Below are positions 7,781-25,710 of a stretch of 27,560 bases of DNA, piece after piece. The notes under the pieces are model-generated. The model did no database searches, was not told the DNA's origin, and worked only from the letters and a program-made list of their open reading frames with translations. The first letter of the stretch is position 1, and each line of letters opens with the position of its first letter. Source of the DNA: a virus; IMG/VR virus record IMGVR_UViG_3300032304_000009, positions 1 to 27,560 of that record; one strand, given 5' to 3'. The translations under genes and the position numbers were made by a program.

Positions 7781-8680
7781 ATGTCCGATAAAGAAGCGGG
7801 TCAAGTATTGACCAGTGAGAATGCGGCAGAATTTTATGCAAACAGATTAGGTTTAGCTGAATCTCCAGCGGAGACTGAGGCGGTTGAAGAAACCGAGCCA
7901 GTAGCCGAAGATGATCAGAGTGAGCCGAAAGAGGCAGAAAAGGAAGCAAACCAAGAGGGTGAGCGAAAGCAAAATCCTAAACTTGAAAAGCGGTTTTCAG
8001 AGATAACCAAGCAACGTGAGGAAGCGCGAAAAGAAGCGCAGAACGAACGTCAAGCAAGGGTAGAACTAGAACAGCGTTTGGCGGCACTAGAGCAACAGAG
8101 ACAGCCTCAACAGCAATCTTATGTTGATCAAGAGCCACAACCAAGCCAGTTCAACGATGCGTTTGAGTATGCGAAGGCTCTAGCTGAGTTTTCAACAGAA
8201 AAAGCGTTAGCTGAACGTGATAGGCAATTGGCACAGCAGAAAGAACAGGAAGCGCAACAAAAGATTATTCAATCTTGGGCGCAGAAGGTTCAGGAAGCAA
8301 AAGCCGAATTGCCCGATTTTGATGATTTGGTCGCATCCAGTGACGTAGTTGTAAATAACGCAGTCAGGGATGCAATTCTGGAGAGTGATGTAGGCCCAAA
8401 AATCCTGTATCACCTAGCTGAAAATAATGACCTAGCCAAAAAGATCGCCAGCTTGAGTCCAAATGCCGCGCTTAGAGAGATAGGTAAATTGGAAGCAAAG
8501 TTTGAGGTTAATCCTGAAACCAAGCAGACAGCCCCTGTTGTTAGAAGTAAAGCACCAACACCGATTCAACCGATTCGTGGTGGGCAAGGCAAGGCTGATG
8601 TACCGATATCCGCTGATGGCGAATTTCATGGTTCATATCAGGCTTGGAAGGCCGCCCGTAAAGCGGGGAAAATTCGGTAA
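7781..8680 (+). CDS. scaffold-like capsid assembly protein
   Basis: The 299-aa protein is placed between portal and coat, where P22 has its scaffold gene 8. It is very acidic over residues 25-65, then forms a long Glu/Gln/Arg-rich coiled coil (about 60-175) with Gln-rich stretches, and ends in a basic segment AWKAARKAGKIR. The P22 scaffold likewise is an elongated helical protein with a basic C-terminal helix-turn-helix that binds the coat. It would guide prohead assembly and then leave. GGGA precedes ATG 7781. Sequence identity to gp8 is not evident; assignment rests on position, composition and the C-terminus. Confidence 0.8.
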   Translation: MSDKEAGQVLTSENAAEFYANRLGLAESPAETEAVEETEPVAEDDQSEPKEAEKEANQEGERKQNPKLEKRFSEITKQREEARKEAQNERQARVELEQRLAALEQQRQPQQQSYVDQEPQPSQFNDAFEYAKALAEFSTEKALAERDRQLAQQKEQEAQQKIIQSWAQKVQEAKAELPDFDDLVASSDVVVNNAVRDAILESDVGPKILYHLAENNDLAKKIASLSPNAALREIGKLEAKFEVNPETKQTAPVVRSKAPTPIQPIRGGQGKADVPISADGEFHGSYQAWKAARKAGKIR

Positions 8681-15219: not shown

Positions 15220-15936
15220 ATGTCAAAAACTGCAACCAAAAAATCAAAACAAAAAGTATGTAAAGCCGCTGATTCTGTGGCTCAAGTTGTTCAAAATACA
15301 CAACTTCAAATTACACATTATTTTCCATGTCCAATTTATTTAATTGAACGTACAGATTTTTTGGATGTAGTAAATACTGTTTCTGAAGAAGCCCTCAAAG
15401 CTACTAAAAAAACTCAACCGCTTAATGAGATTTATCCTGTATACATGACAGGTAATTATTTTGGCGATTTGCGAATGGAAAAGTTTTCAAACTTTGTTGG
15501 CGCAACAGCTTGGAACATCCTTAATGAGCAAGGTTATGCCATGCAAGACAAAGCTGTGCAATTTACAGAAATGTGGACACAAGAGCATCACAAGCACTCT
15601 GCAATGGATGCTCACGTTCATGGTTTTGGTTCACAAATTGTTGGATTTTATTTTCTTGAAACACCAGAAAATTGTTCTCATGTAGTATTTTACGATCCTA
15701 GAGCCGCAAAAGTTCAAATTGATTTGCCAGAGCAAGATGTAAATCTTGCAACACCAGCTAGTAAGATGATTAATTTTACGCCTAAACCCGGCATGATGAT
15801 TTTTGCTAATTCATGGTTAGCACATTCATTTACTAAACACGCGGCTGAATTACCCATTAAATTTGTTCATTTTAATTTGACTGTAATTCAAAGCCCACAA
15901 GAATCGTGTTCTGTGCCAGCCGCTGAGATTGTATGA
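15220..15936 (+). CDS. 2-oxoglutarate/Fe(II)-dependent oxygenase
   Basis: The 238-aa protein fits the phage and cyanobacterial 2OG-Fe(II) oxygenase group of PF13759/TIGR02466. After a Lys-rich leader, the core strand AMDAHVHGFGSQIVGFYFLE (128-147) carries candidate iron ligands His132 and His134; PKPGMMIFANSWLAHSF (188-204) carries the distal His202; and LPIKFVHFNL (211-220) is where the 2OG-binding basic residue should sit, here Lys214 rather than the usual Arg. The lone HxH motif in place of HxD deserves care. In aquatic phages such genes lie in fibre regions and may hydroxylate fibre or host proteins. The gene is AT-rich (15 G/C in 60 nt at 15301-15360) and lacks a clear ribosome site. Confidence 0.82.
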   Translation: MSKTATKKSKQKVCKAADSVAQVVQNTQLQITHYFPCPIYLIERTDFLDVVNTVSEEALKATKKTQPLNEIYPVYMTGNYFGDLRMEKFSNFVGATAWNILNEQGYAMQDKAVQFTEMWTQEHHKHSAMDAHVHGFGSQIVGFYFLETPENCSHVVFYDPRAAKVQIDLPEQDVNLATPASKMINFTPKPGMMIFANSWLAHSFTKHAAELPIKFVHFNLTVIQSPQESCSVPAAEIV

Positions 15937-16471: not shown

Positions 16472-17452
16472 ATGGCTGTGCCTTTTGACATTGTTAGCCG
16501 AGCGCTAAAAGACATTGGTGCATTGGAAGCTGGTGAAACTCCTACTCCAGACGCGGCACTTGATGCGTTTGAGATGATGAATGACATGATTGACCAGTGG
16601 TCAAACGAAAACATGATGGTTTTCAATGTCACAGAGATTATCTGCCCTGTGATACCGGGTCAAACTCAGTACACAATTGGCCCTAACCCATCTACTCAGA
16701 ACTTTATTGGCGCTTCTTTTACAGGCTCAATAACAGGCAATATTTTGACTGTGACAGGAATCTTGTCTGGTGCTTTGGCTCAAGGTCAGACTTTGAGTGG
16801 CACAGGCATAACCGCGGGAACAAAGATTACACAGTTTTTGACGGGTGCTGGTGGCAACATCAATGAGGAAGGCACTTACCAAGTCAACATCAATCAAACT
16901 GTTGCATCCACAACCATCACGGCTTACTACCAAAAGCCTTTAAACCTTGACTCAGCGTTTGTTAGGGTAAACACTACGTCTAATGGCCAGCCTATCACTG
17001 GCGGTGGTTTGGACTACCCAATGTCAGTTTTGGCATTGCAAGATTACGAAATGATTGGTTTAAAGACGCTGAGTGGCCCGTGGCCAAAAGCGGTTTACTT
17101 TAACGCTGGCTCAGATTCAGGCAACTTGTTTGTGTGGCCTAGCCCATCACAAGGTGAACTGCATTTGTTTGCCAATACCTTGTTTAGCCGTTACGACTCA
17201 ATGTATGAGGATATAACGCTTCCACAAGGCTACGCAATGTGCCTCAGATGGTGTTTGGCCGAGCGTTTGATGCCTATGTATGGCAAAGCCTCTCCAACGC
17301 AAATAGCGATGATTCAGACGTTTGCAGGGCAAGCTAAAGCTACCATCAAACGCACCAACATGGCCCCACTTGCGGTAGCCCGTTATCCAGATGCTTTGCA
17401 AACGGGTAGGGCGAAGGATGCGGGATGGATTCTTACTGGCGGCTTTGTTTAA
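16472..17452 (+). CDS. P22 gp4-like tail accessory factor with inserted beta-domain
   Basis: The N-terminus ([20 protein letters not shown], then [20 protein letters not shown]) is the P22 tail accessory factor family, which binds the portal ring after packaging and receives the tail. At 326 aa it is nearly twice the length of P22 gp4 (166). Part of the excess is a Gly/Thr-rich beta-domain at residues 82-151, set exactly between YTIGPNPS and [11 protein letters not shown], which normally lie a few residues apart in relatives. The later part ([20 protein letters not shown], then [17 protein letters not shown]) is the usual helical C-terminus. The same inserted domain occurs twice in the next gene. 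AAGGA precedes ATG 16472. Confidence 0.85.
16715..16924 (+). repeat. coding repeat: beta-domain, copy A
   Basis: It encodes residues 82-151 of the gp4-like protein: [18 protein letters not shown], then [35 protein letters not shown]. The same order, FTGS..G..LTV....SG...GQ...G.G...GT.IT...TG.GG..GTY.VN.SQTVA, is found in copies B and C of the next gene. Confidence 0.75.
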
Positions 17453-17461
17453 GGGGCTACC

Positions 17462-19462
17462 ATGCCAGATTTTGGTTTTGTTGGCTCATCATACGAAGCG
17501 CCTAGTATCTATCAGGATGCACAGGAGTGCATCAATTTCTTTCCAGAAGTTGACCCTGTAAAACAACAGGGTGAGCGTGGGGTGATTGCGCTTTATCCGA
17601 CACCGGGCTTGACGTTAAAAGCCTTGTTGCCTAATTTGCAAGAGGTGCGTGGGCTTCACACCGTGTCTGGCGGTGAGCAAATGATTGCGGTATGCGGCTC
17701 TTACGTCTATGCGCTTACGGCTAATTTTGTCCCTGCGGTAATTGGTCAACTTAATTCCAGCACAGGAATAGTGCGGATTACAGACAACGGCATTAATGTT
17801 TATATTGTGGACGGTGCATTTCGTTACACATGGTACATATCAAGCCCTGCGTCTGCCGTGTTTACGGGTTCTACAAGCGGCACAACATTAACTGTTGCAA
17901 GCGTTTCTAGTGGCACTATTGCTGTTGGACAATCTTTGTTTGGTATTGGTGTATTGTCTGGAACTGTCATTACTGCGCTTGGCACAGGAACTGGCGGTGC
18001 TGGTACATACACCATCAACAGAAGCCAAACTGTTGCAAACTCAGTCATGAATTCTGCGACTGTTGGTGCGGTAGTGACTGCCACTATTGCGGGAACAGTA
18101 ATGACTGTTTCTGCGGTTGCATCAGGCGTTTTGCACGTTGGCCAGACTATTAGTGGCGTTGGCGTAACCCTTGGCACAATTATTACGGCTTTGGGAACGG
18201 GTACGGGTGGTGTTGGAACTTACACGGTAAGCGTGGCAAGCACTGTAGCCGTTGGCGTGACTATGTACGGTTTGAACTTCTCTGTTCTACCCTCTACTGA
18301 TGGTGCGTTTAGCGGTGCAAACACGGTTGATATTATTGACAACTACTTTGTCTATAACAACCCAACGACTCAGCAATTTGGCGCTAGTGACCTTTTGTCG
18401 CCTATTTCGCCACAAACTAGCTTTTCATTAAAAGATGGCGCACCAGATGATTTGGTGGCTTTAATTGTTGACCATCGTGAAGTCTATTTGATGGGTGAAA
18501 TTTCCTCAGAAGTGTGGACTGATGTGGGCGCTGTGCCGTTCCCGTTTCAGAGGATTCCCGGCACTTCTACCCAACACGGTATTGCCGCACCTTTCTCAAT
18601 TGCTCGACTTGGTAATTCATTTGCTTACGTTTCCCGTAACAACCGTGGTCAATCCCAAATTATGCAAATGCAGGGGTACATTCCACAGCGCATTTCTACC
18701 CATGCCGTTGAAAACACTTTAGTCAATAAATACGTTGGCGATGCTATTTCTTGGACTTACCAACTAGAAGGCCATGAGGTTTTTGTTGTCACTTTCCCAT
18801 CTTTAGAACTGACATGGGCTTATGACGCAACCACAGCAATGTGGCACAAATGGCTTTACACGACAGACAACAACGAATATCAGCGTCACCGTGGTAATTG
18901 CTGTGCTGTGTTTCAAGGTTTAGTCATTATTGGTGACTATGAAAACGGCAAGCTGTACGAATTGGACAAAACCAATTACACAGACGATGGCCAAAACATC
19001 CGCAGATTGCGTAGAGCGCCACACTTGGTGACTGAGTTTCAGCGTCAGTATTTTGATGAATTGCAGATTCAGTTCCAGCCGGGCGTGGGTACTACGGGCA
19101 TTTCTGGTGCTGAACAAGTAACTAATACAAACACCATTTATTTGGGTGAAACATATACAATTACGGCAAGTGCAACTTTGACCATTGAGCCTGAACACAC
19201 TTACATTTTGGCCACTCAGCAACCCGTAATAACTACAACCACAAACAACCCTCAAGCAATGCTTAGATGGTCAAATGATGGTGGTTCTACATGGTCAAAC
19301 GAGCATTGGACAAGCGTTGGTCAACTTGGTAAGTACACAAATCGTGCCATTTGGCGCAGATTAGGGACAGCCCGTGACAGAATCTTTGAAGTTTCTGTAA
19401 CTGATCCTGTGAACTTTGTCATTATTTCGGCAAATCTTAAAGTACAAGGGGCAGAAAACTGA
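17462..19462 (+). CDS. P22 gp10-like packaged-DNA stabilisation protein with two inserted domains
   Basis: The 666-aa protein begins with [20 protein letters not shown] and FFPEVDP, the opening of the P22 gp10 (Phage_stabilise) family, which closes the portal-gp4 channel. P22 gp10 has 472 aa; the difference is largely two tandem beta-domains at about 133-200 and 204-268, after DGAFRYTWY. The family sequence returns with [20 protein letters not shown] (about 282-301) and continues to the end. It has the regular spacing of a beta-propeller-like protein (repeated [21 protein letters not shown]). It would plug the filled head and bind the tail needle. AAGGGG precedes ATG 17462; its stop overlaps the next start by one base. 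Confidence 0.87.
17858..18268 (+). repeat. coding tandem repeat: beta-domain, copies B and C
   Basis: Copy B (17858-18061, [19 protein letters not shown] and following) and copy C (18071-18268, [19 protein letters not shown] and following) share GQ(S/T)(L/I).G(I/V)GV..GT(V/I)[14 protein letters not shown](I/V). They match copy A at 16715-16924. The nucleotide sequences differ widely at third positions, so the duplication is old or under protein-level selection. Confidence 0.75.
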
Positions 19463-19714: not shown

Positions 19715-21640
19715 ATGGACAACTTAATTTCTTCACTTGTTGGCGATATTGCTAGTAACGCTGGCAATGCTTCTGGTGGTTTAGTAGATTATCAAGGCAA
19801 GTCGTATGACCCTCAAACTATTCTGTCGCTTGCAAAACAAGTAACAGCGTCAATTGATCCTAATGCTGTCAAAGGCGGTGTTTTTAGCACCAAAGGTGAA
19901 AGCGTAGGTTTTAACTACGATGAAGCAACCAAACTTTTGGGGCATCCTCCATCAGCGGCTGAACAAGTGGCTTTGGACATGGCTCGACACCTTTCTAATG
20001 AAGGTGTTACTGATATAAACAATGTAGATGCTACAACCACAAACAGACGTTTTGGCTCTACATACACAGGCGGTGGCGGCACTATCTATGAAATCAAAAA
20101 GGATGCTGATGGCAAGCCAATTATTTCAACATGGAGTAAAGACACAAGCAATAAAAAGGAAATTCTTGGTGGTTTAGCGCTTGCGGCATTGGCGTTTGGT
20201 ATCCCCGGAATATCCGAAGGCTTGCTTAGTAGCGCATCAACTGGTTCAACAATTGGAACGGTTGGCGCATCAACAGTGACAGGATTAACTGGCGCAGAAT
20301 TGGCCGCGGCAGAGATGGCATTGGGCGCTGGCTCTTATGCTGGTGGTTCAACTTTAGGAACGCTTGGCGCATTAGGAACTGAAGCGGCTGTAGCTGGTAT
20401 GGGTACAGGTACAGGCTTAACAGCGGCTGGCGCTGGTGGCCTTGGCGGTGCAAGTGGTGCGGCTGGTCTTGGTGGCTCTTTAGGATCAGGTTTGACTGCG
20501 GCTGGTGCTGGTGGTCTAGGAGGTCTGTCGGGCGCGGCTGGTCTTGGCGGCTCTTTAGGCTCTGGATTGACTGCTGGCGCAGGGGGTTTAGCTCTTGGTA
20601 ATTCTTTACTTGGTGGTTCAACCCTTGGCTCTACATTAGGTAGTTTAGCCACAGGCGTAGGCGCTGGCGCACTTGGCTCAACATTAGGCGGTTTATCAAC
20701 AGGCGTAGGTTCTGCACTTGGCGCTGGTGCTGGTTCAGCCGCTGGTTCAGCCGTTGGCTCTGGTGCGGGTTCAGCATTAGGCACTGGCGCTGGTTCTGCT
20801 TTAGGCACTAGCCTTGCAACTGGTCTGGGCATATCTGCCCTTGGAAATGTGCTTGGTAGTGCCGCAAATCAATCTGGAATTTCTGATGCTAGAAATCTGA
20901 TTAACCAATATGGAACACAAGCGCAAGGAAATCTTGCAAAGGCTTATGCTGATGCTCAAGCATTAAATGTTGCAAATCGTGGTGACTTGGCAAGCAACTA
21001 TGGAAAAACGCAAGGCAATTTGTATGACATCTACAACCAACAAGTTGGAATTCAGCAACCTTACCAAAACGTTGGTCAAGCGGGATCACAAGGGTTAATT
21101 GGCAATCAAGATTACTTTAACCGTCAGTTTACAAACGCTGATTTAAATGCCAATCTAGCGCCTAACTATGCTTTCCAATTACAACAAGGTCAAATGGCTA
21201 ACCAACGTGCCGCCAACATGGGTGGCGGTAGCATGGGCGGTAATGCTTTACAAGGCTTGCAACGCTACACGCAAGATTATGCGGGTAATGCTTACCAAAA
21301 TGCCTTTACCAACTTCCAGAATCAAAGACAAAACATTTACAACACTTTGTCTGGAATGGCAAACATTGGCACTACATCAGGCGGTCAATTGGCAAGTCTT
21401 GGCAACACATTAGGTGGAAACCTTGGTAGTTTGTCATCTAATTATGGTGGAAACCTTACAACTAGCGCTGGTCAAGGAATCAATGCCGCAAATGCTTACG
21501 GCTTGAACACTGCCAACCTTGCAACTGGTATCGGTTCAGCTTTGGCTGGTAATGCTGTAGCGGGTGGTGCTAATACCGCAAACGCTTTAAATACACTTGG
21601 AAACACAGCGTTGCTTGGCTCAATGATCAAAGCGACATAA
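19715..21640 (+). CDS. DNA ejection/internal virion protein, Gly-Ala rich
   Basis: The 641-aa protein takes the place of P22 gene 7. Residues 1-148 are hydrophilic. From about 149 to 385 a hydrophobic, Gly/Ala/Ser-rich region (EILGGLALAALAFGIPGISE, then many AGAGGLGG- and GSALGTGAG-type segments) suggests glycine-zipper helices that could enter a membrane. The C-terminal part, from about 390 to the end, alternates Asn, Gln and Tyr-rich helices (YGTQAQGNLAKAYADAQALN, NYGKTQGNLYDIYNQQ, YAFQLQQGQMANQRAANMGG), the usual C-terminus of internal virion proteins in such phages. It would leave the capsid first and help form a channel across the host envelope. That role is inferred from gene order and composition. 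Confidence 0.78.
   Translation: MDNLISSLVGDIASNAGNASGGLVDYQGKSYDPQTILSLAKQVTASIDPNAVKGGVFSTKGESVGFNYDEATKLLGHPPSAAEQVALDMARHLSNEGVTDINNVDATTTNRRFGSTYTGGGGTIYEIKKDADGKPIISTWSKDTSNKKEILGGLALAALAFGIPGISEGLLSSASTGSTIGTVGASTVTGLTGAELAAAEMALGAGSYAGGSTLGTLGALGTEAAVAGMGTGTGLTAAGAGGLGGASGAAGLGGSLGSGLTAAGAGGLGGLSGAAGLGGSLGSGLTAGAGGLALGNSLLGGSTLGSTLGSLATGVGAGALGSTLGGLSTGVGSALGAGAGSAAGSAVGSGAGSALGTGAGSALGTSLATGLGISALGNVLGSAANQSGISDARNLINQYGTQAQGNLAKAYADAQALNVANRGDLASNYGKTQGNLYDIYNQQVGIQQPYQNVGQAGSQGLIGNQDYFNRQFTNADLNANLAPNYAFQLQQGQMANQRAANMGGGSMGGNALQGLQRYTQDYAGNAYQNAFTNFQNQRQNIYNTLSGMANIGTTSGGQLASLGNTLGGNLGSLSSNYGGNLTTSAGQGINAANAYGLNTANLATGIGSALAGNAVAGGANTANALNTLGNTALLGSMIKAT
20417..20566 (+). repeat. 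tandem 75-nt repeat in the ejection protein gene
   Basis: Two in-frame 75-nt units (20417-20491 and 20492-20566) each code for 25 residues, LTAAGAGGLGG(A/L)SGAAGLGG and then SLGSG. The peptides differ at one position only, while the DNA differs at several third-codon positions. A third, shortened unit starts at 20567 (LTAGAGGLALG). Confidence 0.85.
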
Positions 21641-21649
21641 GGATAAATC

Positions 21650-23107
21650 ATGGCTGACTTTTCAATGAACGTGAACTACCCAAAGCCTCAAGGTCAAACC
21701 CTTGGGGATATGTTGAACATGGCTGGTGGCATTCAAAGCTATCAACAAGCGCAACAAATGAATCCTTTGATTTTGGAAAAAGCCCAAATCGAGAATCAAG
21801 TTTTAAATCAAAAAAACAATGAGCGTTTAAAACTGCAAGAGTTTACAAGCAACCCAGCGAACTGGCAGACCAATGGCCGTATTGACATGGACAAGATTAA
21901 CGCGGTCATTCCAAAGATTGCCCCGTTGACAGGCGCTGATGTAATCAGTTCATTGAGTGGATTAAGCACAAGCCAAACTAATGCAACCGAAGCAAAAAAT
22001 AAAATGACGCAAGGAATGCGGCAAGTTGTTGCGGGACGATTAGGCATTTTGGGACGTATGGGCATTGATGATCCACAAATCATTGTGGGTGAATTAGATC
22101 GTCTTAAAAATGAAAATCCAGATAGCCGTGAAGTGCATGACTTGATTGAGGCTTACAAATACCCATTGAGCAAAGCCCAACGTGGGCCTAATGTTTTGAA
22201 AGACTTGATTGCACAAGAACAAAGTTTGTTGTCGCCAGCACAAAAAGAAACTGCATTAACACCAAGCATCAGCACAACAACAGGCGGTCAAACAATACTT
22301 ACACAGCCAAGCGTGGCGGGTTCTGCGCCTACAGCTACTATTGGTGTGGCGGCTGGCTTACAGAACACCCCACAGCAAGGTGGTGGCGTTATGGGTCAAA
22401 AGCCTGTAGTTGGCAATTTGCCATTGCCTTACCCTGTCAGAAGCGCATCACAACCTTACGCGCCAGAGCCAACAGAGGCGGCAGATCAGGCTTCTGGTCA
22501 AAGTTATCGCACACGTTTGATTGAGGCTCAAGGCGGTTTGCCACAAAGCCGAAGGAATGTTGAGGAAGTTATTAAGCAAGCCACAGGCATTGGTGAAAAC
22601 CTTAAATTTCCTAGCGGTGGCGTTATGGGCAGATTAGAGCAAAAAGTGCTTATGGCTTTAAAAAGCGATGAATACGATATGCTTGCTAAAGACTTGGCTA
22701 ACATGGCATTGTCAAACACTAAGGCTATGGGTGGCGTTGGAAATACCGTGGCTGGCTTGGATATGCAAGCCGTGGCCAATGGTACGGTTAAAGTTCCAAC
22801 AAATGTATTGATCAACATTGCCCGTAGGGTTCAGGCTGATCAAACCAACATTGATATGCAAGCCAATGGCGCACAGAAATTTGCACAGCAATATGGCGAC
22901 AACAACATCAAGGCTTATCAGCAATTATGGAATGCCAATGCTGATACCAAGATTTTTGAAGTTATGAACATTTACAAGGACATAACTGACCCAACTAAAC
23001 GCAAGTTTGAGATTGAAAAACTGCTAGGAAATGACCCCGTAAAGCGTCAAGAGTTTTACAATAAGTATCAGAACATTAAGAAATTGTCTGAAACTGGAGG
23101 TTTGTGA
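21650..23107 (+). CDS. internal virion / ejection protein
   Basis: The 485-aa protein is placed where P22 has its second ejection gene (20). The opening MADFSMNVNYPKPQGQTLGD with a Gln-rich helix (YQQAQQMNPLILEKAQIENQ) is often seen in internal virion proteins of environmental podophages. Residues 200-285 are a loose Pro/Thr/Gln-rich linker. The rest is helical (DMLAKDLANMALSNTKAMGG, then TNIDMQANGAQKFAQQYG). There is no catalytic motif. It follows the gene-7-like protein by 9 nt and overlaps the transglycosylase protein by one base. AAGGA precedes ATG 21650. Confidence 0.72.
   Translation: MADFSMNVNYPKPQGQTLGDMLNMAGGIQSYQQAQQMNPLILEKAQIENQVLNQKNNERLKLQEFTSNPANWQTNGRIDMDKINAVIPKIAPLTGADVISSLSGLSTSQTNATEAKNKMTQGMRQVVAGRLGILGRMGIDDPQIIVGELDRLKNENPDSREVHDLIEAYKYPLSKAQRGPNVLKDLIAQEQSLLSPAQKETALTPSISTTTGGQTILTQPSVAGSAPTATIGVAAGLQNTPQQGGGVMGQKPVVGNLPLPYPVRSASQPYAPEPTEAADQASGQSYRTRLIEAQGGLPQSRRNVEEVIKQATGIGENLKFPSGGVMGRLEQKVLMALKSDEYDMLAKDLANMALSNTKAMGGVGNTVAGLDMQAVANGTVKVPTNVLINIARRVQADQTNIDMQANGAQKFAQQYGDNNIKAYQQLWNANADTKIFEVMNIYKDITDPTKRKFEIEKLLGNDPVKRQEFYNKYQNIKKLSETGGL
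23096..23100 (+). promoter_or_regulatory. ribosome binding site choosing ATG 23107
   Basis: GGAGG at 23096-23100 is 6 nt from ATG 23107 but only 3 nt from the in-frame GTG at 23104. The ATG, which overlaps the previous stop as TGATG, is the better start. Confidence 0.7.
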
Positions 23108-25710
23108 TGGATGAACTTGGCGCACTTATTTTAGGTAAAAAACCAGAAGCCAAACCGTCTGTCATTTCTGATCAACTATTGGATAGCTTGAAACGTGTTG
23201 AGAGTGGCAAAGACCCTTACGCCATAAACAAACAAACTAAGGCAATGGGCGCTTATCAGTTTATGCCTGAGACTGTTCAAATGCTTCACAAACAGGGTGT
23301 GAAATTTAACCCTTTTGATGAGCAAGAGGCCCGTGGTGCGGCAAAACAATACTTAGAACAATTGGTGCAACGCAACAATGGTGATGTAAACAAAGCGTTG
23401 GCTCAGTATGGCGGCTTTATTACTAAAGACCCGTCTAAGTATGTGCAAAACGTCACACAAGGCGCACAGCAACCACAGCAAACGCAACAACCAAAACAAG
23501 CCCCTGATGATGAATTGGGCGCTTTGATTCTTGGTAAACAAACAAAGCCAAATCAGCAAGGCCAACAAAACCAGCCTATGCAAGAAAGCACTGCTGGTGG
23601 TGGCCGCGGCTCTTATGCCGGATTTGATCCAGAAGCTAAAGCTATTGCTGAAAGTCAATCAACCCGCGGGCCAAGACAGCCAGAAGGAACGGCACTAGGA
23701 CGCATGGCTGGCAATTTCTTGGGTCAAGTGCAAGAAAGTAAACGTGCTTTGGGTGAAATCATTACAGCACCTATTGCTGGCGCTGTAACAAGCGTTCTTG
23801 GCCCTGCAACGGGTATTGTGGCCACAATGCGATCTGGTCAATATGGAACGCCTGAAGGCATCCGCATTGGTGAAGAACAATCTAAAAACTTACAAAAACA
23901 ATTGTCGCCTGAAATCAGAACGCCTCAAGCACAAGCTGTTTTAGGTCAATTACAAAAAGCGTTTGAAGCATCCAAAGTTCCTCCTGTTGCTATGCCTGAA
24001 CTTGCGGGTTTTGCACCATTGGTAAGCCCTGCTATACAACAAGGCAAACAAATGGCGGGAGAGGCTTTGCAAGGTGGTAAACAAGTCGCGTCTAATATTG
24101 GTAAACAATTAGGCGTTGGTGAACTTGAATTGCAAAGACAATTTGAGGCTAAAGGCGGTCAACCACAAATTCAACCACAAGCTAAAGCTGGCAGTATTGG
24201 TGCGGCTAAAGTTGATGCTAATCCTTATGCTGGTGTTATTACTGGCGAAGAAACAGCAAGGGGGCAATTTCCTCAAGTCAAATTGTCTAAAACTGCTAAA
24301 GATGTACCAGTTTCTGAACAAGCAACTAGATCGCAAATTGCCAATGAAATACTTGGTGATACTGGTCAAGTTCGCCAAGGTGTTATTACTGGCAATGAAA
24401 ATCTATTGCGTAATGAACACACAAAAGCAAAGATGGCTAATCCAACGCCAGAAGGTGAACTGTATAAACAACAGATTGCCAATGAACAAGTGGCGTTATC
24501 TAACTATGCTCAAAAGCGCATTGAGAACACAGGCGCAAGCCCATCTTTAATAACACCTTATGAACGTGGTGAGCGTATCAATGACGCATTTGCGGGTCAA
24601 GATGGTTTGGCTGGTTTCTTTAAAAATGAAAAAACCAAACTTTATGATGACGCAAAATTAACTGTTGGTGACAATCCTGTTCAATCTTCAACTTTGGAGA
24701 ATTTAATAAATTCGCCTCAATTTAAAGCAGAGTTGAAAATAAGAAAGCAAGCTGACTTTACTGGTGGTTTAAAAGAATTGTTGGATTTGCACTCTACACA
24801 AGGTTTAGAAGGAACATCGCCTAGTAGCATTGCGGGATTGGAAAAATTACGCCAATCTTTAAATGCTCAATGGACTCCTGATAACGCTTACGCTATTCGT
24901 AAGGCGGTAGAAGCAATTGATTCTGACATTGCCAAAGCTGGTGGGCCGGGCTTGTATGAAAAAGCTAGAAGTTTGCACCAAGCTGAAAAAGTCTTGTTTG
25001 GTTCAAAAGGAATTAAACAAATTTTTGGCGACATTGATCCTAATGGCGTTCAAACTGCCACAGCGTTTGATTCAATTCCGCAAAAGCTAAACAGTATGCC
25101 ACTTGATCAATGGCGGCACATTTACGATACGGCTGAAAAAGTGTCTAAAGGCACAATTAACGGCCCAATTGATAAAGCAACTGGTTTACCTAAATGGACT
25201 GTTGAAGTTCCTCAAGAACTTAGAGTTTCAGCGCAATCAGCAATGGCCGAAATGCGTGGCAATCTTGCCCGTGAAATTTATCAAGCTGGCGCTTCTAAAG
25301 CGGGTGAGTGGAATCAAAATTCAGTTAACAACATTTTGAATGCTAGGGCTGACAAGATTAAATTGGCGTTTTCTCCAGAAGAACAAAAAGCCTTTCACAC
25401 ATTGAACATGGGTGGCTATCTAATGCCGGGCATTCATAGCTACGAAGGCGCTGGCCAACAAACTAGACGCGTTGGCATGATTGAAGGCAATCTTGGTAAG
25501 ATCGGTGCAACTACTGGTGCGGCCGCTGGAACGGCAATCTTTGGGCCGGGCGTGGGTACTGCCGTTGGTGGTTATTTAGGCGGTAAAGCTGGTGTAGCTG
25601 GTTCAGAAAAACTTGCCAATCGAGCATTAAGTAAAGAAGCTGTGAAATCCCAAAAGGAAATGCAAAAAGCATCACAACTTGGAACTAAACTTTCAGACTT
25701 AGGAAAATAA
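23107..25710 (+). CDS. ejection protein with lytic transglycosylase domain
   Basis: The 867-aa protein has an N-terminal lysozyme-like domain: LLDSLKRVESGKDPYAINKQ with candidate catalytic Glu32 in VESG, then GAYQFMP (48-54) and NNGDVNKALAQYGG near 95-108. Virion transglycosylases of this kind thin the peptidoglycan so that DNA can cross the periplasm. The domain is flanked by two copies of DELGALILGK (2-11 and 135-144). A Gln/Pro-rich linker follows, then a long helical body (about 200-800) and a Gly-zipper tail (GAAAGTAIFGPGVGTAVGGY, then GGKAGVAGSEKLA). It is the third and largest ejection-type protein in the row, taking the place of P22 gp16. Domain assignment is good; membrane action is inferred. 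Confidence 0.8.
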   Translation: MDELGALILGKKPEAKPSVISDQLLDSLKRVESGKDPYAINKQTKAMGAYQFMPETVQMLHKQGVKFNPFDEQEARGAAKQYLEQLVQRNNGDVNKALAQYGGFITKDPSKYVQNVTQGAQQPQQTQQPKQAPDDELGALILGKQTKPNQQGQQNQPMQESTAGGGRGSYAGFDPEAKAIAESQSTRGPRQPEGTALGRMAGNFLGQVQESKRALGEIITAPIAGAVTSVLGPATGIVATMRSGQYGTPEGIRIGEEQSKNLQKQLSPEIRTPQAQAVLGQLQKAFEASKVPPVAMPELAGFAPLVSPAIQQGKQMAGEALQGGKQVASNIGKQLGVGELELQRQFEAKGGQPQIQPQAKAGSIGAAKVDANPYAGVITGEETARGQFPQVKLSKTAKDVPVSEQATRSQIANEILGDTGQVRQGVITGNENLLRNEHTKAKMANPTPEGELYKQQIANEQVALSNYAQKRIENTGASPSLITPYERGERINDAFAGQDGLAGFFKNEKTKLYDDAKLTVGDNPVQSSTLENLINSPQFKAELKIRKQADFTGGLKELLDLHSTQGLEGTSPSSIAGLEKLRQSLNAQWTPDNAYAIRKAVEAIDSDIAKAGGPGLYEKARSLHQAEKVLFGSKGIKQIFGDIDPNGVQTATAFDSIPQKLNSMPLDQWRHIYDTAEKVSKGTINGPIDKATGLPKWTVEVPQELRVSAQSAMAEMRGNLAREIYQAGASKAGEWNQNSVNNILNARADKIKLAFSPEEQKAFHTLNMGGYLMPGIHSYEGAGQQTRRVGMIEGNLGKIGATTGAAAGTAIFGPGVGTAVGGYLGGKAGVAGSEKLANRALSKEAVKSQKEMQKASQLGTKLSDLGK

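Follow-up and report, generated by a model that had tools for sequence, protein, structure and literature searches.

Why would a phage protein carry the same ten residues twice, once at its extreme N-terminus and again behind a wall-cutting enzyme domain? The window analysed here, a stretch of 27,560 nucleotides, is the 27.6-kb record of a P22-like podovirus and encodes terminase, portal, scaffold, coat, an Hc3 tail protein and an ejection operon. The gene order Hc3 - gp7-like protein (phrog_598) - E485 - SLT protein is that of P22, and the repeat lies in the protein that ends the three-gene ejection operon (Table 1). A preliminary description proposed that the copies are docking tags for the scaffold, portal or inner face of the coat, or cleavage sites that free the enzyme domain. 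Made from the sequence of the window only, it was blind to how the pair changes together between lineages and to the exchangeable cassette that the pair brackets.

Table 1. Features of the ejection operon discussed in the text, in window coordinates.
Feature	Position	Strand	Remark
First ejection protein (641 aa), its C-terminal part resembling P22 gp7 (phrog_598)	19715..21640	+	does not track motif type
E485, preceding ejection protein, 485 aa; P22 gp20 / T7 gp15 position; stop overlaps the next gene's ATG	21650..23107	+	
E485 C-terminal 62 residues, candidate socket	22919..23104	+	one motif-type change on its own tree
Final protein of the ejection operon, 867 aa; in order, copy 1, the SLT cassette, a Gln/Pro-rich linker that contains copy 2, and a long body	23107..25710	+	
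Putative docking peptide copy 1, DELGALILGK, residues 2-11	23110..23139	+	conserved in relatives
Cassette flanked by the two copies, an SLT-type lytic transglycosylase domain, residues 20-101	23164..23409	+	PF01464, E = 2.8e-8
End of SLT region and Gln/Pro-rich linker before copy 2	23410..23508	+	predicted disordered; pLDDT 32 just ahead of copy 2 in modelled relative
Putative docking peptide copy 2, DELGALILGK, residues 135-144	23509..23538	+	0 mixed pairs among 83 proteins

The repeat itself is as first described. DELGALILGK is identical at residues 2-11 and 135-144, and four of the ten codons differ, all synonymously (GAT GAA CTT GGC GCA CTT ATT TTA GGT AAA in copy 1, GAT GAA TTG GGC GCT TTG ATT CTT GGT AAA in copy 2). 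Aligned with each other, the two copies of the window protein score 48, compared with 17.9 +/- 3.4 for shuffles. Because this score is far above the shuffles and both copies persist in relatives, a chance origin of the repeat is excluded. The open reading frame starts at ATG 23107, with GTG 23104 as the alternative from the ORF listing. The upstream gene's stop shares its last base with this ATG (TGATG), and in relatives the two codons directly abut, confirming both the start and the residue numbering given at first.

Many relatives of the window are present in IMG/VR. Of those assigned to a named bacterial genus, the Ramlibacter prophage L271 is the closest, and an operon related to that of the window is also present in PfAn1, a Pseudomonas fluorescens phage from Lake Baikal. 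Far from lacking the motif, as the preliminary description had allowed, they keep both copies. When the motif is divided into type A (LG.LILG) and type B (LEQFL), each of the 83 distinct proteins of either type has a same-type pair, with no mixed case. Two matching copies also occur in relatives whose N-termini are quite different, the peptide then differing lineage by lineage: DVLEQFLGGG..DPLEAFFSG, DEVSELILGK..DEISALILGT, GLDDFSSDVL..GLEDFSSHAL, DLFATLQG..DLFSTLQA, EDFGAIMARVKEA..EDFSAIMDRVKQA, FAELWDET..FADMWEAT and LLSTIQNAV..LLSTIQDAV. Some enzyme-less proteins have their copies in near tandem (NPFAQFVKQPNPFAQFV; LPAGFVLD..LPPGFQLD). When each of 15 motif clusters is represented by one protein, the own-pair scores add up to 641, and not one of 20,000 permutations does as well, the best reaching 534. 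Own-pair scores are weak in L027, L371 and L381, and no clear pair was found in L069/L252, whose proteins begin directly with the SLT domain; across these sequences, the main evidence is carried by the window-type and B-type lineages. Among all proteins of the first 105 related loci and the window, the strict motif is confined to the last ejection protein, which argues against a general virion address tag.

Is the likeness of the copies a property of the peptide or of the DNA? In 30 type A proteins, synonymous differences between the copies occur at 135 of 243 same-residue codon pairs, where independent draws of codons from the same gene would be expected to give 143.7. The codons differ as in independent sequence, so the copies have no recent shared DNA history and their likeness is held by selection on the peptide. 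Gene conversion or a DNA-level repeat is ruled out by this comparison. The protein-level selection first proposed from the window is thus borne out more widely, the copies being conserved across relatives while their synonymous codons are as free as in independent sequence.

What lies between the copies is far less constant. The SLT domain of the window has a nearly invariant ES catalytic signature. In fold it is matched by the transglycosylase domain of gp16, the T7 core protein (Z 8.8 over 97-99 residues). In PHROGs the last protein matches phrog_342 with E 6e-11, a family annotated 'internal virion protein with endolysin domain'. Beyond the SLT region, the body matches no named ejection family in PHROGs and no PDB sequence, and among solved structures only the SLT part of the protein finds a match. 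In relatives of types A and B the cassette takes the form of an SLT domain, of a ~55-residue coiled coil or of an NNPGNLRP-type domain that matches nothing in Pfam; some relatives hold no cassette, and in another lineage (L046) its place is taken by a VanY peptidase. SLT and coiled-coil cassettes are each found with both motif types. On the SLT-domain tree the motif type switches 6 times, at least 5 of these being forced, and both copies switch together every time; windows of the downstream body give 6-10 switches. Three relatives (G011, G032, G033) have a window-like backbone and a foreign body (39-40% identity) and keep the window-type pair, and in G005 the body is 70% identical, the backbone is distant and the motif pair is the other one. 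Judged from these trees and mosaics, cassette and body are exchanged independently of the peptide pair.

Two variants of the cassette region were observed in addition. In L334 (3001-3480), L318 and L324, the cassette NNPGNLRP...GFQ..TPEEGI.AAD.NL stands between B-type peptides and has no Pfam family match, and a similar NNPSGLGWNGKTW... domain lies between the copies in L278. The NNPGNLRP-type cassette is possibly an undescribed wall-active domain. In L036, L037 and L038, enzyme-less proteins bear N-terminal near-tandem copies of unrelated peptides (DPNY.NAN..TQ.AI, NPFAQFV, LP.GF.LD), and these pairs are the empty-cassette state.

If the peptides dock, the partner should be sought among proteins that change with them, and the preceding ejection protein, E485, does so at its C-terminus. 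A tree of its last 62 residues shows a single motif-type switch (support 100/99), and in 61/61 phages the type of the tail is that of the motif. With those residues removed, the E485 tree shows 5 switches, at least 4 of which are forced by well-supported branches. Sliding windows give 4-8 switches along most of the protein and then 3, 2 and 1 at the C-terminus. Columns that separate types A and B are likewise concentrated there, with 8 in the last 45 residues vs 7 in the other 440 (p = 1.2e-5), and those of the tail fall in residues 442-470, for example LLG vs LFP. Over 47 tails from all lineages, motif similarity tracks tail similarity when the rest of E485 is controlled (partial Mantel p = 0.0005). 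Only 5-6 independent motif-type switches are resolved, too few for a sign test on independent pairs to attain 0.05. We considered and rejected the tail as a third copy of the peptide: its own-lineage similarity is no better than cross-lineage similarity (p = 0.69), and it therefore behaves like a socket rather than another plug. In structure libraries the E485 C-terminal domain resembles unnamed viral proteins only, in a comparison that, for the PDB, barely probes that part. At the other end of E485 (21650-21800), a signature ~LG(D/E)M(L/V)N..GG.Q..QQAQQ.NPL is common to lineages with different docking peptides and could be an assembly motif of its own.

The other structural genes do not behave in this way. 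In terminase, portal, scaffold, coat, gp4, Hc3 and the gp7-like protein, separating columns number 1-6 each and are scattered. An apparent separating block of 37 columns in Hc3 proved to be an alignment artefact of truncated hits, with 4 columns left once corrected. The gp7-like first ejection protein was rejected as a partner, with 3 switches and 2 separating columns, as was the scaffold N-terminus, which is conserved but the same in the A-type G031 and in B-type phages. That N-terminus (in the gene at 7781-8680) has a signature, ~T(S/N)EN.A(E/D)F.A...G, conserved in P22-like relatives and missing in the more distant G018. Some further features of these genes deserve mention. The gp7-like protein of window-type phages (19715-21640) has a variable N-terminal extension of ~400 residues, the proteins of other lineages being ~245 residues in total. 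The adjacent gp4-like (16472-17452) and Hc3 (17462-19462) genes share an inserted Gly/Thr-rich domain of ~70 residues (phrog_38233/21413); Hc3 holds two stretches of it, and it is apparently missing from the ~500-aa Hc3 of G005, G024 and G031. A 2OG-Fe(II) oxygenase-like gene (phrog_81) lies at 15220-15936 among the tail genes.

A structural comparison was made with AlphaFold2 in the relative L095, whose last gene has its ATG immediately after the E485 stop and in frame with it. The modelled chain joined the last 140 residues of E485 to the first 160 of the next protein (63 aligned sequences); it is artificial, the intergenic stop being read as glycine purely as a computing device. With the E485 part present, copy 2 is predicted as a helix at residues 281-290 with a mean pLDDT of 82, and the linkers on its two sides score 32 and 39. 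With the E485 part absent, copy 2 falls to 43 without a helix, and copy 1 is at 45. Copy 1, tethered directly behind E485 in the fused chain, reaches only 54. The gain of copy 2 is not a general effect, since the SLT domain scores lower in the fused chain. In the models, then, copy 2 goes from disordered to an ordered helix when the E485 C-terminal part is present, which supports docking.

Taken together, the covariation and the models make the E485 C-terminal tail the best candidate partner of the peptides. We consider it probable, at roughly 60%, that the decapeptides are docking peptides that bracket an exchangeable wall-hydrolase cassette and putatively bind a socket on the E485 C-terminal domain. 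Each copy would be disordered alone and would fold into a short helix in that socket. E485 is expected to be oligomeric, and the two copies could fill equivalent sockets on two subunits and so staple the enzyme cassette between them; this could happen inside the virion core or in the conduit that crosses the envelope. No new interface would then be required to mount whichever cassette stands between the copies. Whether this extends to podoviral ejectosomes in general, each lineage placing its own peptide twice around a wall-active cassette, with pair and cognate tail socket coevolving as a specificity code while enzymes and body are freely exchanged, we judge to be an even question.

The concordance of peptide and tail could also have a simpler origin. 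The pair might be functional with some other protein as its partner, and its association with the E485 tail might be hitchhiking of adjacent DNA: the tail abuts copy 1, the two lie within 150 bases, and the switch counts drop towards the gene junction, as linkage predicts. Linkage can account for part of the concordance between tail and copy 1. Yet the cassette, equally near copy 1 on its other side, is unlinked (6 switches), copy 2 beyond the cassette is also concordant, and the change in predicted order depends on the E485 part. Copy 2 is the less well explained because it sits between a mosaic cassette and a mosaic body, so that each change of type would call for a precise double exchange, and we think hitchhiking an unlikely sole cause. 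Similarly doubtful is the first proposal, that the pair docks to scaffold, portal or coat and so loads the protein into the procapsid. Window-type genomes do retain the motif together with the whole backbone, and in P22 the scaffold is required for incorporation of the ejection proteins and its N-loop affects gp16 (PMC8402733, PMC12005531). However, none of terminase, portal, scaffold, coat, gp4 and Hc3 has a stretch that follows motif type as the E485 tail does; the A/B split is rejected by coat (AU p 0.0002) and marginally by portal (0.04), though not by scaffold (p 0.14); and the motif is absent from the other ejection proteins of the same phages. The idea of a docking tag in disordered stretches is supported, and scaffold, portal and coat are not favoured as its partners. 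By analogy with P22, scaffold-dependent recruitment is possible as a second role.

Roles other than docking fare worse. Retention of the copies as recombination sites for cassette exchange would suit the fact that exchange falls exactly between them, but their synonymous sites are no more alike than those of independent codons, and near-tandem pairs without a cassette occur (NPFAQFV, LPxGFxLD); we hold it to be highly improbable. Cleavage or maturation sites freeing the enzyme domain, the other early suggestion, would fit copies that flank an enzyme, and in P22 one ejection protein is known to be processed at its N-terminus (gp7, cut by OpdA). Against this, the same pair also brackets non-enzymatic coiled coils, and the sequences are unrelated between lineages and matched inside each protein: what is conserved is a hydrophobic peptide of LxxLI type, wholly different from one lineage to another. 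We find cleavage scarcely credible. Nor do we give any real weight to membrane-active amphipathic segments acting after ejection. The peptides are short, hydrophobic and partly helical in the model, but unspecific membrane binding would not predict matched, lineage-specific sequences or their covariation with the tail of a protein.

Docking on E485, if correct, would bear on a poorly known matter, the mutual recognition of P22-like ejection proteins, which are hard to see in virions. A matched pair that tracks the short tail of one neighbour is a specific, testable interface, and it would supply a rule for swapping the wall-cutting enzyme without loss of assembly. It also offers a sequence signature by which ejection proteins, mostly annotated as 'hypothetical' in uncultured phages, could be found there. 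The mosaic nature of ejection proteins is already known (PMC8954989); the extent of exchange around an invariant ten-residue pair would surprise specialists. In openly licensed papers we found no description of the peptides or of a matched lineage-specific pair around an exchangeable cassette that tracks a cognate tail, although an account in a subscription journal could have been missed.

Among known systems, P22 has the same gene order (gp7-gp20-gp16) and the same one-base stop/start overlap of the last two genes. Its gp16, unlike the window protein, lacks both a transglycosylase and a duplicated N-terminal peptide, and a search for the duplication in P22 gp16, gp20 and gp7 and in T7 gp16 and gp15 found none. 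P22 ejection proteins each assemble without the others, which counts against docking on E485 (PMC8402733). The T4 capsid targeting sequence is likewise a short N-terminal peptide on a head-carried protein, ten residues being enough in T4 to direct a protein to the head (PMC8402733). The window peptide, by contrast, occurs twice with a domain in between, is specific to its lineage and is missing from the phage's other head proteins; no sharing of one peptide by several internal proteins, as in T4, was seen across the 105 loci and the window, where the strict motif occurs in the last protein only. In modular polyketide and peptide synthetases, short terminal docking domains pair specifically while the modules that they join are exchanged. 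These proteins are unrelated, and we draw an analogy only, claiming no kinship. In T7, as here, the last ejection protein has an N-terminal transglycosylase. The N-terminal part of T7 gp16 (transglycosylase and 'molecular tape') binds the C-terminal domain of the preceding protein, gp15, through an extended stretch that comes after the enzyme, and stabilises both this domain and the tunnel (PMC8954989). T7 gp16 has no duplicated peptide, its tape is one continuous stretch after the enzyme, and no motif pair around an exchangeable cassette has been described for it. By operon position, gp16 and gp15 are nonetheless the same pair of proteins and would stand in the same relation to each other as the one proposed here.
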